From Haloarcula halophila (lineage in GTDB: Archaea > Halobacteriota > Halobacteria > Halobacteriales > Haloarculaceae), in the NCBI RefSeq assembly GCF_029278565.1, contig NZ_CP119560.1:186001-250000 (forward strand): a stretch of DNA of 64,000 bases, written 5' to 3'. Both the position numbers and the translations under genes were made by a program. Position 1 is the first letter of the stretch; every line of letters starts with the position of its first letter. Below are positions 12,977-63,662 of this stretch, in pieces. The notes under the pieces were generated by a model that saw only the letters and a list, made by a program, of their open reading frames with translations, was not told where the DNA came from and did no database searches.

Positions 12977-12993
12977 GTTCGATAGTATCGAAC
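12977..12993. promoter_or_regulatory. Perfect 17-bp palindrome upstream of an iclR gene
   Basis: GTTCGATAGTATCGAAC is perfect, with 8-bp arms around one central base. This is the odd-length geometry typical of IclR-family operators. It lies 45 bases upstream of the TATA box GCTTAATTG (13038-13046) of the iclR gene, suggesting autoregulation. Confidence 0.65.
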
Positions 12994-56472: not shown

Positions 56473-58128
56473 CTACTGTTCGAGCGTACTGACACCCGAG
56501 ACGATGATGCGGATGCCGTCTTGATACGACTGATCGAGTGTGGCCTCCCAGCCGTGAGTCTCGGCGAGCATCCGAAGATTCGGGAGCGTCAGCCCGGCTT
56601 CGGCGTCGGGAATCGCGCTGCCGTACTCGAAATACGACGCCGGATCGGTGTCGCCAGTCGGCGTTCCGTCATCGGTAATCGTAAACCCACGATCTGTGGC
56701 AGTGACGGTGATCTCGGTCGCGCCGTTGTGTGCGCCGAACCTGAATGCGTTGACGAACAGTGTCTGCAGTCGCTCGGGGTCAGCCGTAAGCTCGGCATCA
56801 GTGTCGATCGAGAGGGTAACGTCCTCGACGTCGGCGATCGCCCACGCCTCTTCGGCGATACTCCCGATATTGACCGTCCTGGCCTCGTGGTCTTCGACAC
56901 TTTGTCCGTACCGGGCGAGTTTCGCCAGATCGTCGACGATATCGGCCATCCGATCGGACGTGTCCGAAGCGGTTTGTAAGGACTCACGCGCTAGATTCAC
57001 CTCACCGTCATCGATCGCGGTGCCAGCGATATCGACTCTGGCGCTGAGAATTTGCAGCGTATTGAGTAGCTCGTGTCGGATTGCGGCGGCGAACCCCTCC
57101 AGTTGCTCGTTTTGCCGTTCCAGTTCCCGGCGCTGTCGTTCGGTGCGAGTCACCTCGGAAAAGAGTACCATCCGCCCGATATCGGTCTGCCCTAGCGAGA
57201 AACGCGTATCGCTGACCAGATAGTGCTCGGTTTCACCGTCGTCGGTCCGGTCGAGAATCCAGTTCCGGTCACCCAGTTCCGTGTTCGCCGGCGGGACGAC
57301 AGCGTCCAGCGGTTCCCCCGTTGCTCCATCCAGAGCCGGAAAGAGCCGCTCGGCGCGTCTGTTGTAGTGACTGATCCGATCGTCGGTATCCAGATAGATG
57401 ATCGGCGCGTCGACACCGCTCGTGAGCTGGACGGCGAGAAACTCCTCCTCAAAAACGTAGAGGACGCCGATCGCGAAGACGGCCACTCCGAGCGGCTCAT
57501 AGTTGATATCGATGAGGAAGTCGCTCGCGAAGCCGACGATATCGAACACGACCGGTAAACCGGTGATTCCGACGAGTGCCGCCAGCGGTCGCGTGTCGTA
57601 GTCGGCATCCAGAAACAGTTCGTACAACATGAAGAAGCCGACCGCGACGAGGGCGTACGAGAGGCCGGTGACGACCCAGTGGAAAGTGCCGTGCATGATC
57701 GTCAGATGCGGGAACGGCGTGGTGACGAAGGCCGTCTGGAAGTACCAGCCGTGGAGCGGATTCGTGAGTTTCACTGCGACGATCGCGAGATACAGTCCCA
57801 CTGCGAGACGCCTGTATAACGCGTCCCGGTGGAATGAACGTCCGGTGTAGGCGGAGGCGAAGTAGAGCCAGGCGCCGACGGTGGTGAGTCCGACGATCAG
57901 ACTGAGCGTGTAGGCCCCGTAGCGCAGCGCAGGCGTCGGAGCGACGAGAAAGGCCAGTTGTAGTGCTGCCCAGCCGCCGCTTCCGACCAACAATGCGACC
58001 AACCCTCGCCGGGTGTCCAGGTCCGTGATCTGTCTGGCACGGCCGACTGCGACCCCACAGCCGAGCGCTGCGAGCCCGTAGGCGAAAACATACGACAGAA
58101 ATGCCAGAGGAACACCGAAAATATCCAT
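56473..58128 (-). CDS. HisKA_7TM sensor kinase with degenerate ATP-binding site
   Basis: The protein has 551 aa. Residues ~1-225 form seven or so membrane helices of the HisKA_7TM type. A PAS domain follows (VDAPIIYLDTDDRISHYNRRAERLF), then a HisKA-like helix pair with FAAAIRHELLNTLQIL, which keeps the phospho-His. The HATPase fold is recognisable but its motifs are worn. The N-box reads VNAFRFGAHNGA in place of ENLFRNAIEHGG. The G1 box is ITDDGTPTGDTD, without the second Gly. The G2 box lacks GxGxG (DAEAGLTLPNL). ATP binding is therefore doubtful, and the protein may act as a pseudokinase or be decaying. No partner response regulator adjoins. Confidence 0.8.
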   Translation of the reverse strand: MDIFGVPLAFLSYVFAYGLAALGCGVAVGRARQITDLDTRRGLVALLVGSGGWAALQLAFLVAPTPALRYGAYTLSLIVGLTTVGAWLYFASAYTGRSFHRDALYRRLAVGLYLAIVAVKLTNPLHGWYFQTAFVTTPFPHLTIMHGTFHWVVTGLSYALVAVGFFMLYELFLDADYDTRPLAALVGITGLPVVFDIVGFASDFLIDINYEPLGVAVFAIGVLYVFEEEFLAVQLTSGVDAPIIYLDTDDRISHYNRRAERLFPALDGATGEPLDAVVPPANTELGDRNWILDRTDDGETEHYLVSDTRFSLGQTDIGRMVLFSEVTRTERQRRELERQNEQLEGFAAAIRHELLNTLQILSARVDIAGTAIDDGEVNLARESLQTASDTSDRMADIVDDLAKLARYGQSVEDHEARTVNIGSIAEEAWAIADVEDVTLSIDTDAELTADPERLQTLFVNAFRFGAHNGATEITVTATDRGFTITDDGTPTGDTDPASYFEYGSAIPDAEAGLTLPNLRMLAETHGWEATLDQSYQDGIRIIVSGVSTLEQ

Positions 58129-58796
58129 CTACAAGGTATACGTGCCCAACTGGCTTGATTCCTGTGCCGAACTTTCGACAATTGATACTCGCCCCACCGC
58201 GACAGTCCAGTCCCGCTGGACGGATGAACTCCAGGATGTGAGGGGACTCCAACGCGGAGTGGCTGTGTCCGTCACGCGATTCGTTGACGGCACTGGCCGT
58301 TGTGTCTTCCGACACTAGTTTGAGATCGCCGTTCCCCTGGCCTCGAATCGAGCACATCGGTAGTTGATCTGTTCCGACCGCCGTCTTCTCCTCGTCGAGG
58401 GCTCGATTGTCCAGTTCTATTCTGACGATCGCCATTCATAATTCGTTTATTCGAATGTGTGGGTACAAGATCTATATTAAAGTTAAACGGAGAGAATATA
58501 CCACCAATTACGATTATACACTCAGATTTAGAAAATATACTGGGTTATATACGAGAAACATATCCTAATTCGGGTTGGATGTAACTGTATTCTCTGATCT
58601 GTTAGCCGAACCGCCGCCGCCGATCTCCCTCGCATCTTTCCACGTCCCTTCCACATCAACGATATAACAAGCCCTGCCATAGAATAACGTGTGTACTTGT
58701 GTTATGTGATGGCAGTACCGCCGGCAACTCTGTATCGTGTGTCCGGCTATCCGTTTCCCATCGAATTCCGAACTGTGTCGGCTTGAGCGGATATAC

Positions 58797-58811
58797 TCCG
58801 GTATTACCGGA
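58797..58811. promoter_or_regulatory. 15-bp palindrome, site A
   Basis: TCCGGTATTACCGGA is perfect, with 7-bp arms around one base. This is the geometry of many IclR-family operators. It is related to sites at 59132 and 59305. Confidence 0.5.
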
Positions 58812-59111
58812 AAAGTCGGCCACTGACCCAGATTCTGCTGGTTGCGGCAGATCCTTGTGTACCGTAAAGTATCGGCGCTACTGAAGAACAACGCGTACCC
58901 GACCGCATCCGCGGTGGTGCCGATCAGCAGATAATCCATTCTGATCGGTATAGAACGATGTGCCAATGATCTCTCGATCGAGACGGGGAGGGATTCACAT
59001 GAAAAGACTACATTGGACGAACTACACCTGTCCCCTCGTTCTGACCGTCCAGTCGTGAGCGCAATCAGATCGTCCGAAACAACCGGGATTCCTCCGGTGT
59101 TGTCCCTACTG

Positions 59112-59146
59112 TCCGATAATAACAGAGAATATCCGATATTAACGGA
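59112..59146. promoter_or_regulatory. Tandem 15-bp motif, sites B and C
   Basis: TCCGATAATAACAGA (59112-59126) and TCCGATATTAACGGA (59132-59146) stand exactly 20 bases apart, about two helical turns. They share the TCCGATA-TAAC core with site A and site D. Confidence 0.5.
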
Positions 59147-59304
59147 CTTATCACGGTACGAGGAATCCAGTCACAGGCTCTCGTCGTGGCTCGATATCGA
59201 GAGTATGAAGCCGTTGAGGGGCTGCTACTCCACCTAGAACGCCCGAGCGGAACAAACGCCACTCGCTACCATGGCAGTCGCTAACAGTTTTCGATGGAAT
59301 CTGA

Positions 59305-59319
59305 TCCGGTAATATCGGA
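59305..59319. promoter_or_regulatory. 15-bp palindrome, site D, upstream of an SDR gene
   Basis: TCCGGTAATATCGGA has 7-1-7 arms with one mismatch. It lies about 40 bases upstream of the TATA-like element (TTTACGTATATCC, 59360-59372) of the gene starting at 59390. Confidence 0.55.
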
Positions 59320-59389
59320 TCCTGGAAAATATCCCTCCTAACGGCCCCACACCTACACGTTTACGTATATCCGCCACAGAGCGGGAGAT

Positions 59390-60211
59390 ATGTCTGCAGG
59401 AGAGTCAGACGATCGTTCGAGCGAGTTCGATTCGCGCCTCACCGACCGCCATATCGTCGTCACGGGTGGCGCACAGGGAATCGGGCGCGGTATCGTCCTG
59501 CGATGTGCGCAGGCCGGTGCTGACGTTACGATCTTCGATATCGACACCGAGACAGCCGGTGAGACGGCTGTTCGGGTTCGAGAGACCGGGAGTGAGGCGA
59601 CAGTGGTCGAAGTCGACGTGGCCGACGCGGACTCCGTCGACAGCGGTGTTGCGGACGCCCGTGGTGCTCTCGGTCCGATCCACGGCGTCGTCAACAATGC
59701 AGGAATCCAGCGATCGGTCCCGCTCTTGGACACGAGCGAAGCCGAATGGGACAGACATTTCGCAGTCAATACGAAAGGGGCCTTTTTCGTCGCCAAACGG
59801 GTCGCCGAGCAGATGATCGCCGACGATATCGCGGGACGAATCGTCAATATCTCGTCTGTCGGAGCGGAACGCCCGTTCACTGGACAGGGAGCCTACGGGG
59901 CATCGAAGGCGGCGGTACTGGCACTAACGACGGTCTTGGCGAAGGAACTCGCCGAACACGGGATCACGGCGAACGCGATCAAGCCCGGAACTGTCGAGAC
60001 ACCGATGGTCGATACGTGGCTCTCGGAGAAAGCAGCACTGAGCGACCAGTCGGAAGCGGAGATCCTCTCTGAATCGCTCGCGACACATATCCTCGATAGA
60101 CCGGGACACCCAGAGGAGATCGGCCACATGGCAGTGCTGTTGCTCTCAGACGAAGGGGAGTGGATAACCGGGGAGTCAATCGCCGTCGATGGTGGGTATC
60201 TGGAGGCTTGA
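59390..60211 (+). CDS. SDR-family sugar/sugar-acid dehydrogenase
   Basis: The protein has 273 aa. The cofactor motif is VVTGGAQGIGRGIVLRC, with Asp after the second strand (FDIDTE) favouring NAD. NNAG, catalytic Ser (NISSVGAE), YGASKAA and the C-terminal ITGESIAVDGGYLEA are all present. Close relatives include sugar 1-dehydrogenases and 2-keto-3-deoxy-sugar-acid dehydrogenases. The convergent mutarotase, one base away, and the lactonase-like gene point to L-rhamnose or L-fucose oxidation. Confidence 0.87.
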   Translation: MSAGESDDRSSEFDSRLTDRHIVVTGGAQGIGRGIVLRCAQAGADVTIFDIDTETAGETAVRVRETGSEATVVEVDVADADSVDSGVADARGALGPIHGVVNNAGIQRSVPLLDTSEAEWDRHFAVNTKGAFFVAKRVAEQMIADDIAGRIVNISSVGAERPFTGQGAYGASKAAVLALTTVLAKELAEHGITANAIKPGTVETPMVDTWLSEKAALSDQSEAEILSESLATHILDRPGHPEEIGHMAVLLLSDEGEWITGESIAVDGGYLEA

Positions 60212-60212
60212 C

Positions 60213-60515
60213 TCAGATCATCCGGTAGACCTCGTCCATCCACGGATCGTCCTCGTCGAGGAGGATGGGGTCCATCACCTGATCCCACTCCGCCTGCGCG
60301 TCGCTCTCCGCCATGATCTCCTTGATCACCGACGGGTCCTCGACTTCCATGAACCCGAAGACGTGTCCCTCTTTCTCGAACACGCTGTATGTCTCGATAC
60401 CCGCATCGGAATCGAGATATGCGGACTCCAAGGCGTCGGGGACGTCCTCGTGTTCCTCGCGGTACGCCTCTCGCTGTCCCTCCGTGATGCGGAGGTGAAA
60501 CGCTATGCGTGGCAT
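60213..60515 (-). CDS. rhaM: L-rhamnose mutarotase (RhaM/DUF718 family)
   Basis: The protein has 100 aa from the ATG at 60515. It is a small ferredoxin-like fold with the family pattern IAFHLRITEGQREAYREEH, IETYSVFEKEGHVFGFMEVED and EWDQVMDPIL. RhaM interconverts alpha and beta anomers of L-rhamnose. A TATA-like element (AAACTAAGCC on the minus strand, 60541-60550) precedes it. It shares a 78-bp divergent promoter region with the amidohydrolase gene, tying both to the same sugar pathway. Confidence 0.85.
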   Translation of the reverse strand: MPRIAFHLRITEGQREAYREEHEDVPDALESAYLDSDAGIETYSVFEKEGHVFGFMEVEDPSVIKEIMAESDAQAEWDQVMDPILLDEDDPWMDEVYRMI

Positions 60516-60593: not shown

Positions 60594-61463
60594 ATGTTTG
60601 ATACCCATACCCACGCCTGGGGGCCTGCCACCGACGACCACCCGTGGGTGAACGGGCCGATACTGGACCTCGTCGACGCCTTCGACGTTCACACAGTCTA
60701 CACAGCCGACCGGTTGCTGGCCGACATGGACCGGAACGGTATCGACGAGGCCGTCGTCGTCGGATACCCGATCTGTGACTGGACGGACAACTGGTACACG
60801 CGAGAGGTCGTGGCCGAGTCCGATCGGCTGTCCGGTATCGTGATGCTCGATCCGTTCGCGGAGGACGCGCCAGCCCACCTCCGACAGTGTCTGGAGACCG
60901 ATGGGGTTCTCGGATTTCGGCTGGGCGCGGCGTGTCCTTACGATCGGATGTGGGAGACGTTCGATCCGGACGCGACCTGGCTTCGGGAGTCACTTCAGGA
61001 GACTGCGTTCTGGGATGCCGCCGTCGAAACCGACGCCGTCGTTCAACTCCTCTGTGACCATAGCCAACTGGACCAGGCCCTCGAAGTCGTCGAAGCGTAT
61101 CCGGAACTCACCTATCTCTTCGACCACTTCGCACACGCTGGCCCCGAGACGCCGATCGAATCTGGGACGTTCGCACAGTTCGCTGACCTCGCTACCTACG
61201 ACAATGTCGCGGTGAAAGTCTCCGAGATACCGCACATGTCCGACGCTGCGTTCCCGTACACCGACATGCACGACCACGTCCGATGGTTCCTAGACGCGTT
61301 CGGTCGGGACCGCGTGGTCTGGGGCTCTGACTTCCCTAACGTCAGCGACGTTGCCACCTATCCCGAGTCGTACAACTGGCTCCGACAGGTCGATTCGCTG
61401 TCGAAGAAAGACCGCCAGTGGATCACGGGGCGGGCGTTCCGCCGGCACGTCGGCCTCGGGTGA
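60594..61463 (+). CDS. Amidohydrolase_2 family lactonase-like enzyme
   Basis: The protein has 289 aa from the ATG at 60594, with TATA-like GATTTAG (60562-60568) at leaderless distance. It is a TIM-barrel with metal motif FDTHTHAWG at the start, LFDHFAHAG in the middle and the late Asp in VVWGSDFPN. The family includes L-fuconolactonase, L-rhamnonolactonase and decarboxylases of the ACMSD type. With RhaM and SDR neighbours, hydrolysis of a deoxy-sugar lactone is the best guess. A decarboxylase role is less likely but cannot be excluded. Confidence 0.83.
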   Translation: MFDTHTHAWGPATDDHPWVNGPILDLVDAFDVHTVYTADRLLADMDRNGIDEAVVVGYPICDWTDNWYTREVVAESDRLSGIVMLDPFAEDAPAHLRQCLETDGVLGFRLGAACPYDRMWETFDPDATWLRESLQETAFWDAAVETDAVVQLLCDHSQLDQALEVVEAYPELTYLFDHFAHAGPETPIESGTFAQFADLATYDNVAVKVSEIPHMSDAAFPYTDMHDHVRWFLDAFGRDRVVWGSDFPNVSDVATYPESYNWLRQVDSLSKKDRQWITGRAFRRHVGLG

Positions 61464-61481: not shown

Positions 61482-63662
61482 CTACTCTGCCAGTAGTTCG
61501 ATCGGATGACTGGGGTGTCGTTCGAGCAGTGCGTCGATCTGTTCGAGACAGGAGGTCCCGCTGGCGACGACTCGGCGATCCTGTACCCCGTTGGCCTCCA
61601 ACTGCTCCCGGAGCCGGTCACCGACATCCATGCTGAGTTCGTAGTAGTCGGACTTGTAGCCGAAGCTCCCGGCCATCCCGCAACACTCGACGTCCGAGGT
61701 CACGACGTCGTACCCACACTGCTCCAGGACGGCGACGGTATGGGCTTCGAGGCCGAGCGTCCGCTGTTGACAGTGGCTGTGGTACGCGAGCGCTTCGTCG
61801 TCCCCGCTCGGGAGCTGACCTACCGCGGCACCGTTTTCGAGGAGTCCGTAGACGTACTCGAACACTTCGTAGCTGTTCTCGGCGAGATCGGTAAACGTCG
61901 CTTCGTCCAGCAGTTTCTCGTACTCACGCTGGAACATCGCGTGGTCACTCGGTTCGATGACGATCACGTCTCGCCCGTCGTCGACGTGCGGTGCCAGCGT
62001 CTCGGTGACTCGCTGTGCGTGGGTCCGGGCCGTCGCAACCATCCCCTGAGACAGGGGCGCGCGGCCGCTCGACGCGACGGCCGGAACGACCACGTCGACA
62101 CCTAACGCTTCGAGGACTTTCACGGCCGCCTTCCCCCGGCTGACCTGGACGTGGTTCGTATAGAGGTCCGGATAGACCACGGCCCGTCGCTGGGGGTCCT
62201 CGACAGTCGAGTCGCGGTTTCGAGCCCAGTCGACGAACGTCTCGCGCTCGAAGCTCGGCAGCTCACGCCGGGGGTCGATATCCAGCGCCCAGGCCATCGC
62301 CTTCCGTGACAACCCGGTACTGGCGAGCCAGTTCGACACGGGTGCGGTCGCCGTTCCCAGTTTGGCGACAGTCTCGAAGTTCCCGAAGAACCGCTTCTGG
62401 AGGGACGGCGAGTCGGGCTCGGCGTCGGGAGTGAGCCCGTCGACAAGCCAGTCGGCGGGTTCGTCGCCCTCGCGGTTGATCCGATCACGGACGACCGTGT
62501 TGATCCACGGGATGTCGATCTCGACCGGACAGGCGTTCACACAGCGGCTACACCCAGTACAGAGGTCGTTGAACTCCGCTGCCACGTCGAGGCCCTCGAT
62601 ACCTGCTTCCCAGCCGGTTGCGATCCCACCGGAGTACGTCTCACCGCCGAAGGCGTGTCCGCCCACGCTCTGGAAGTTCGCACAGGAGTTCGCACAGGCC
62701 GAACAGCGGATACAGTACAGCGTCTCCCGCAGTTGGTCGTCCTCCCGCATCGCCATCCGGCCGTTGTCGATCAACACGAGGTGGAACTCCCGGTCGGTAT
62801 CGAACTCCGAGAGCGGCGTCTCGTCGTCGTCGAAGTCGACGACCGGTGTCTCGACCGGTGGCGTCAACAGCGAGACATACGAGGTGATGTCCTGTCCGGT
62901 GCCCGACCGGCCGATGAGTTCGACGAACGGGTGGAGGTCCCCGACCGTCGGGATCACCTTCTCCACGCCCGCAACAGCGACGTGGGTGTCGGTGGCCGCG
63001 ACGGTCTTCCGTGCGTTGCCTTCGCTCGTGACCAGCGCCATGGTCCCCGACTCCGCCGTGACGAAGTTCGCACCGGTCAGTCCGACCTCGGCGTCGACGA
63101 TTTTCTCACCCAACTTCTCGCGAGCAAAGCGGGTCAGCTCCTCGGCAGTCTCCAGCGGCTCGTCGGGGTCGAACACTTCGTTGAACAGTTCGGCGATGCT
63201 CTCGCGGGACTTGTGGATCGCCGGCGCGACGATGTGTGACGGGGCCTCGTCGGCTACCTGCAGGACCCACTCGCCGAGATCCGTCTCGACGACGTCGACA
63301 CCGTCGGCTTCGAGCGTGTCGTTGACCTCGATCTCCTCGCTGGTCATCGATTTACTCTTGACGACGCGGTCGGCGTCTCGGTCCGCGACCACCTCGCGGA
63401 TGTAGTCGTTCGCGTCGGCAGCGTCGTCGGCTAGGTACACTGTCCCGCCGTTCTCCTCGACAGTTTCGGTCAGCTCGTCGAGCAGTTCCGGCAGCCGTTC
63501 GATCGCGTCCTCCTTGATCGCGCGGGCCTCGGACTTCAGTTCCTCGTAGTCGGATAGCTCCGCGACCGAGCGGTACCGCCCTTCGTTGAATCCCTGGGTG
63601 TTCTCGGCGACTGCTGCCCCCTCGGTCCGCATCAGTTCACGGAGCTCGTCTGCGGTAGCCAT
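61482..63662 (-). CDS. Fused LutB-LutA lactate-utilisation iron-sulfur protein
   Basis: This 726-aa protein has an N-terminal LUD domain (residues ~60-300; GLTGANFVTAESGTMALVTS), then two 4Fe-4S motifs (CIRCSACANSCANF and CTGCSRCVNACPVEIDIPW). Two CCG cysteine-rich domains complete it (AYHSHCQQRTLGL, ECCGMAGSFGYKS). In bacteria LutB and LutA are separate chains; here they are joined. With LutC they oxidise L-lactate to pyruvate. It starts 2 bases after the lutC stop. Lactate is an expected end product of a diketo-hydrolase route for L-rhamnose, giving it a place next to the sugar genes. Confidence 0.88.
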   Translation of the reverse strand: MATADELRELMRTEGAAVAENTQGFNEGRYRSVAELSDYEELKSEARAIKEDAIERLPELLDELTETVEENGGTVYLADDAADANDYIREVVADRDADRVVKSKSMTSEEIEVNDTLEADGVDVVETDLGEWVLQVADEAPSHIVAPAIHKSRESIAELFNEVFDPDEPLETAEELTRFAREKLGEKIVDAEVGLTGANFVTAESGTMALVTSEGNARKTVAATDTHVAVAGVEKVIPTVGDLHPFVELIGRSGTGQDITSYVSLLTPPVETPVVDFDDDETPLSEFDTDREFHLVLIDNGRMAMREDDQLRETLYCIRCSACANSCANFQSVGGHAFGGETYSGGIATGWEAGIEGLDVAAEFNDLCTGCSRCVNACPVEIDIPWINTVVRDRINREGDEPADWLVDGLTPDAEPDSPSLQKRFFGNFETVAKLGTATAPVSNWLASTGLSRKAMAWALDIDPRRELPSFERETFVDWARNRDSTVEDPQRRAVVYPDLYTNHVQVSRGKAAVKVLEALGVDVVVPAVASSGRAPLSQGMVATARTHAQRVTETLAPHVDDGRDVIVIEPSDHAMFQREYEKLLDEATFTDLAENSYEVFEYVYGLLENGAAVGQLPSGDDEALAYHSHCQQRTLGLEAHTVAVLEQCGYDVVTSDVECCGMAGSFGYKSDYYELSMDVGDRLREQLEANGVQDRRVVASGTSCLEQIDALLERHPSHPIELLAE

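Follow-up and report, generated by a model that had tools for sequence, protein, structure and literature searches.

Palindromes upstream of a haloarchaeal L-rhamnose gene unit as predicted operators of an IclR-family regulator

Introduction

Four related 15-bp palindromes lie scattered through a gene-poor gap upstream of a short-chain dehydrogenase (SDR) gene in Haloarcula halophila, which raises the question of which protein they serve and which genes they control. We examined them within a 64-kb window (the whole stretch of 64,000 nt analysed, C2:186001-250000). In Haloferax volcanii, L-rhamnose catabolism is activated by the IclR-type protein RhcR (Reinhardt et al. 2019, cited in PMC11519228), and RhcR, XacR, GacR and MscR have all been reported as activators in haloarchaea (PMC11519228). 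In the accessible literature, haloarchaeal IclR regulators of sugar use are described mainly from deletion phenotypes. For one such regulator, the analysis presented here proposes an operator word, a map of its sites and a regulon, all specific enough to be tested directly.

Results

Four palindromes share one word in the gap upstream of the SDR gene

The gap comprises 1,261 bp (58129-59389), from the start of a histidine-kinase gene to the SDR ATG at 59390 on the plus strand. The palindromes and the genes around them are listed below, with site positions given relative to the SDR start codon and scores taken from the weight matrix described further on.

56473-58128, minus strand: histidine-kinase gene, left border of the gap
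58797-58811, no strand: predicted distal operator TCCGGTATTACCGGA, at -593; 22.2 bits, the best score in 64 kb
59112-59126, no strand: predicted operator TCCGATAATAACAGA, weak tandem member, at -278; 15.5 bits
59132-59146, no strand: predicted middle operator TCCGATATTAACGGA, strong tandem member, at -258; 21.0 bits
59305-59319, no strand: predicted proximal operator TCCGGTAATATCGGA, at -85; 21.7 bits
59355-59369, plus strand: predicted BRE/TATA ACACGTTTACGTATA, centred ~26 bp 5' of the SDR ATG; the block is conserved in the SDR-promoter alignment, and its TATA role is putative
59390-60211, plus strand: SDR, probable L-rhamnose or 2-keto-3-deoxy-L-rhamnonate dehydrogenase (PF13561/PF00106; substrate suggested by context)
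60213-60515, minus strand: rhaM, L-rhamnose mutarotase family (PF05336, E 3.9e-15, which passes the Pfam cut-off)
60594-61463, plus strand: Amidohydrolase_2 family protein, probable L-rhamnono-lactonase and predicted target (PF04909; weak match to L-fucono-1,5-lactonase)
61482-63662, minus strand: lactate-utilisation protein with a LUD domain and 4Fe-4S (PF02589, Fer4)

The original prediction had described four 15-mers here, the one at 59112 being the weaker, with two of them 20 bases apart. All four are present, and the 59112 and 59132 copies are separated by exactly 20 bp. Each palindrome has a single central base, and they share the word TCCGRYAWTRYCGGA. Their arms pair at 7/7 positions in the 58797 copy (a perfect 7-1-7 palindrome), at 6/7 in both the 59132 and 59305 copies, and at 5/7 in the 59112 copy. 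A TTTACG block ~26 bp 5' of the SDR ATG is conserved across the aligned SDR promoters, which suggests that the SDR mRNA may be leaderless.

The SDR gene belongs to a probable L-rhamnose cluster that also contains rhaM, the Amidohydro_2 lactonase, lactate-utilisation genes, a CUT1-type ABC transporter, a Zn-dehydrogenase, an enolase-family dehydratase, a luciferase-like protein, an IclR regulator and a FAH-type hydrolase. Among NCBIfam models, the dehydratase best matches L-rhamnonate dehydratase and the hydrolase best matches 2,4-didehydro-3-deoxy-L-rhamnonate hydrolase, in each case below the equivalog cut-off. The lactate-utilisation gene fits with L-lactate as a product of the pathway, and a GH78 rhamnosidase lies in or beside the rhamnose cluster of one relative (G004). 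As in the RhcR system, an IclR regulator is clustered with a CUT1 transporter and probable rhamnose-breakdown genes; the gene order differs from that of the Haloferax rhamnose cluster, where the SDR gene follows the hydrolase gene.

The word marks the promoters of one group of IclR genes

The IclR-family gene of the cluster (G000:C2:258518-259276) lies outside the window, 13 kb downstream, and its product matches PF09339 (IclR HTH) and PF01614 (IclR C-terminal) above the cut-offs. A further palindrome, TCCGGTAATAGCGGA, is found at C2:258470, 8.5 kb past the window end and at -48 from the iclR start codon; here TCCGRYAWTRYCGGA adjoins a BRE/TATA predicted for the iclR gene itself. Among orthologues with 67-90% identity from seven genera (Haloarcula, Haloferax, Natrialba, Halogeometricum, Halegenticoccus, Halobonum and Halocatena), 22 of the 23 iclR promoters carry TCCG-N7-CGGA at -47 to -70, in most cases with a T-rich, TATA-like stretch no more than ~10 nt beyond it; the one remaining copy, that of G004, overlaps the iclR start codon. 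In other Haloferax species an equivalent cluster contains an orthologue with 76-77% identity, whose promoter has this word at -49. Context and family membership make the C2:258518 regulator most probably the orthologue of RhcR.

Among the IclR gene promoters compared, the motif is confined to this group. TCCG-N7-CGGA is absent from 19 paralogue promoters (~40-55% identity), from the DNA preceding the 12 remaining IclR genes in this genome, and from that preceding 20 other IclR genes of Haloferax gibbonsii. The original prediction of IclR operators, based on the odd-length 7-1-7 form, is essentially right, as shown by the presence of the word in promoters of the cluster iclR and its orthologues, from its absence in paralogues, and from a tandem offset that equals a published IclR spacing. 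In bacteria, the tandem palindromes bound by IclR proteins are spaced by 18-22 nt, an arrangement read as tetramer binding (PMC8222616), and the tandem spacing of 20-22 bp seen here lies within that range. Bacterial operators such as that of E. coli IclR, TGGAAATNATTTCCA, likewise are odd-length 15-bp palindromes with one central base. By eye, the half-site TCCGRYA fits neither GKTYCRYW3-4RYGRAMC nor TGRAACAN1-2TGTTYCA, consensuses that are bacterial only and do not define the family.

These comparisons indicate that the palindromes are very probably operators of the C2:258518 regulator. A different regulator, whether an IclR paralogue or a protein of another family, might recognize them and control the rhamnose iclR gene as well, since the genome encodes 13 IclR proteins, two of them inside the window. 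We consider this improbable: the word tracks one iclR gene and its clade across genera and precedes no other IclR gene in this genome, the genome holds a single member of the word-carrying clade, and the array and that iclR gene co-occur in one cluster.

Two features of other IclR genes on this replicon deserve mention. A perfect odd palindrome, TTCGATAGTATCGAA, lies at window position 12978-12992, a few hundred bases before the match to the C-terminal domain of another IclR gene (C2:199315, window ~13315), and might serve as an operator for that regulator itself; its half-site differs from the one described here. Two further IclR genes with identical scores, C2:36889 and C2:503911, are located near the two ends of replicon C2 and probably represent a duplicated segment.

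The sites are conserved in position while the surrounding DNA is not

In the SDR upstream regions of six Haloarcula species, the proximal site lies at -84 to -96, the middle site at -247 to -271 in this genome and four relatives (-356 in G010), and the distal site at -505 to -568 in the relatives, compared with -593 here. In this genome, G012 and G014, the middle site is preceded at exactly 20 bp by a weaker copy. Apart from the sites, the upstream DNA is essentially unalignable among these relatives, which suggests selection on both the position and the spacing of the sites. Across 86 strong sites, 8 of the 10 distinct pairs of neighbouring palindromes no more than 60 bp apart are spaced by 20-22 bp, whereas the background rate predicts ~0.2. 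The pair in L088, which includes a GC-rich site, is counted provisionally among the eight. When the 20-bp tandem signature was sought class-wide in 391 genomes, these half-sites were found in it only here and in G012, and five other genomes carry it with unrelated half-sites.

In Haloferax, Halegenticoccus, Halobonum and Halocatena, sites are also positioned 5' of genes of the rhamnose cluster, and G004 and G011 have them 5' of transporter operons. In G007, G011 and Haloferax, the array directly adjoins the rhaM 3' end. In genomes that have lost the SDR gene, it is found there between convergent genes, ~400 bp from the lactonase gene, which makes its target in those genomes less certain and counts somewhat against the operator reading. 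G004:C3 (L141:7400-7509) retains a C-terminal remnant of the SDR, GEWIAVDAGYL, between the array and rhaM; these leftover codons imply that the SDR gene was lost and the array kept, and so account for the odd position of the array. In G020 the array directly precedes the lactonase gene. The G004 remnant and the G020 placement together point to the SDR/lactonase unit as the target, with the SDR gene as the main predicted target of the array.

The original prediction had suggested that the array may control the rhamnose/lactate genes. Comparative genomics bears out the rhamnose half of this assignment. The lactate half needs correcting: the site map of this genome contains no strong site belonging to the lactate genes (61482 onwards, opposite strand). 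The ABC transporter of the cluster also has no strong site upstream in this genome, which speaks against the operator reading in so far as a rhamnose regulator might be expected to act on uptake.

An unannotated transcript in the gap had been proposed as the other possible target, and the array might drive or regulate a small RNA or small protein encoded within the 1.26 kb. Few haloarchaeal promoters would need a gap of this length, the sites reach 593 bp upstream of the SDR gene, and the array stands between convergent genes where the SDR is missing, the last of which is explained by the gene loss recorded in G004. Within the gap, we found no tRNA and no Rfam match. Its one 133-aa ORF (58565-58966, minus strand) has no Pfam match and no counterpart in relatives, and of the gap DNA only the palindromes are conserved. 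A hidden transcript of this kind is therefore a very poor prospect, and that part of the original prediction is not sustained.

The left half of the gap includes an AT-rich tract (window 58400-58599) with 34-37% GC, compared with 53-66% in its neighbours; it is not conserved in relatives.

The motif is rare and concentrated in the rhamnose cluster

The consensus written in the original prediction, with three mismatches allowed, occurs 15 times in the window where 17.1 occurrences are expected, and hence shows no enrichment. Because the loose consensus behaves as background, the case needed an independently defined motif, and we used a weight matrix trained only on the iclR promoters of other genomes. 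This matrix ranks the sites at 58797, 59132, 59305 and 59112 as 1, 3, 2 and 5 in 64 kb. Three matches in the window reach at least 16 bits, against ~0.1 expected per 64 kb, and these are exactly 58797, 59132 and 59305. The 59112 copy falls in a range where ~0.9 window matches are expected at 14 bits or more.

A genome scan had been proposed alongside the original prediction, with many random matches as the outcome that would speak against it. The consensus TCCGNYANTRNCGGA occurs at six places in the 4.04-Mb genome and its reversed control at none. Four of the six are in the cluster (three in the gap and one at iclR), and they constitute every intergenic match of the genome. The remaining two (C4:37565 and C1:1562021) are inside coding ORFs and were set aside, as was a near-match at C2:277793 that likewise falls within an ORF. 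In 120 kb of a Haloferax contig scanned with the matrix, six of the seven matches belong to the rhamnose cluster.

That the palindromes are chance occurrences, or a repeat or terminator with no regulatory role, has next to no probability: 15-mers with at least 6/7 paired arms are indeed common (202 in the window) and the loose consensus is no commoner than expected, but the six genomic places against none for the control, the four in one cluster and the positions conserved in other species all argue otherwise, no T-run follows the palindromes, and searching the genome for repeats of the gap returned nothing, leaving it as single-copy DNA in which no mobile element was found.

A recognition-helix aspartate marks the regulator clade

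The presence of the word in a regulator's own promoter coincides with an Asp in its recognition helix, which reads STxHDHL or nearly so. The word accompanies 29 of the 30 proteins with this Asp, compared with 0 of 47 others. All proteins with word-bearing promoters contain this Asp, and one Asp protein lacks the word. Asp-C is among the highly specific amino-acid/base contacts (PMC8222616). The Asp trait changes only once on the tree, however, and is for this reason a clade marker rather than independent evidence for a base contact. One supported haloarchaeal IclR clade combines the recognition-helix Asp with TCCG-N7-CGGA in its members' own promoters, and could be used for predicting the operators of other members.

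A model for control of the SDR/lactonase unit

Taken as a whole, the locus is best explained as a set of operators through which an RhcR-type regulator would drive the rhamnose SDR/lactonase unit, a reading to which we assign a probability of about 0.92 on the comparative sequence evidence. One dimer would occupy each 15-mer, and at the 59112/59132 pair two dimers could come together as a tetramer along a single helical face. By analogy with RhcR, XacR, GacR and MscR, binding of rhamnose or a pathway intermediate would allow the regulator to activate the SDR(-lactonase) unit from the proximal site. The same analogy makes activation a somewhat better guess than repression. The single site at iclR would serve autoregulation.

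The distal sites might add cooperativity or hold the promoter off when no inducer is present. Their involvement in long-range control is a possibility to which we lend less than even weight. The spacings within the array show no consistent helical phasing, and simple looping is less likely for it. Most bacterial IclR sites have their centres between -20 and -80, and very few fall between -300 and -400 (PMC8222616), whereas the array described here extends ~600 bp upstream. A more elaborate and rather doubtful version is that the array forms a distance-acting archaeal element, in which the tandem pair and other sites as far as ~600 bp upstream hold IclR tetramers that form a bridge with the proximal site. 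The promoter would then be off without sugar and boosted with it, an enhancer- or silencer-like logic in archaea. The same low estimate covers, jointly with this element, the notion that the haloarchaeal IclR clade marked by Asp would share a TCCG..CGGA operator.

A possible parallel exists in the XacR-dependent xacEA promoter of Haloferax volcanii, which is constitutive with 250 bp of upstream DNA and xylose-responsive with 750 bp; its operators were not identified in that work (PMC10448506). In both cases a haloarchaeal IclR protein, known or predicted to be an activator, serves a promoter for sugar catabolism that is preceded by a long upstream region, which xacEA requires for its control; xacEA differs in involving pentose genes and another IclR protein. 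The difference between 250 and 750 bp is what a far-reaching operator array might be expected to produce. A conserved array extending ~600 bp upstream provides a concrete model for the unexplained upstream requirement of xacEA, and a distance-acting array, if real, would account for the 250-750 bp of upstream DNA that a haloarchaeal sugar promoter requires.

The kind of control element proposed here, an IclR-family operator, is already known. This sequence word, the array and the predicted gene set appear to be unpublished: we found no paper reporting a TCCG..CGGA operator word, array or regulon in the accessible literature, which excludes Reinhardt 2019 and Johnsen 2015. The locus could also yield a rhamnose-inducible expression promoter for haloarchaea.

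Additional sites in relatives

Several sites were encountered in relatives beyond the arrangements described above. In G011:C11, two strong operator-like sites (L140:4626 and 4782) are located at some distance from the main rhamnose cluster, 5' of a gene for a family-4 glycosidase, and this gene is a possible extra member of the regulon. The rhamnose cluster appears to occur twice on one contig of G010 (G010:C2, L080-L083), and the two copies differ in how the iclR, luciferase-like or lactate genes are split, which looks like an assembly overlap with sequencing errors. Finally, a single strong site of 21.9 bits (L142:9486, G002:C29:117486) lies between divergent genes, one of which resembles phosphoenolpyruvate synthase in its N-terminal sequence.
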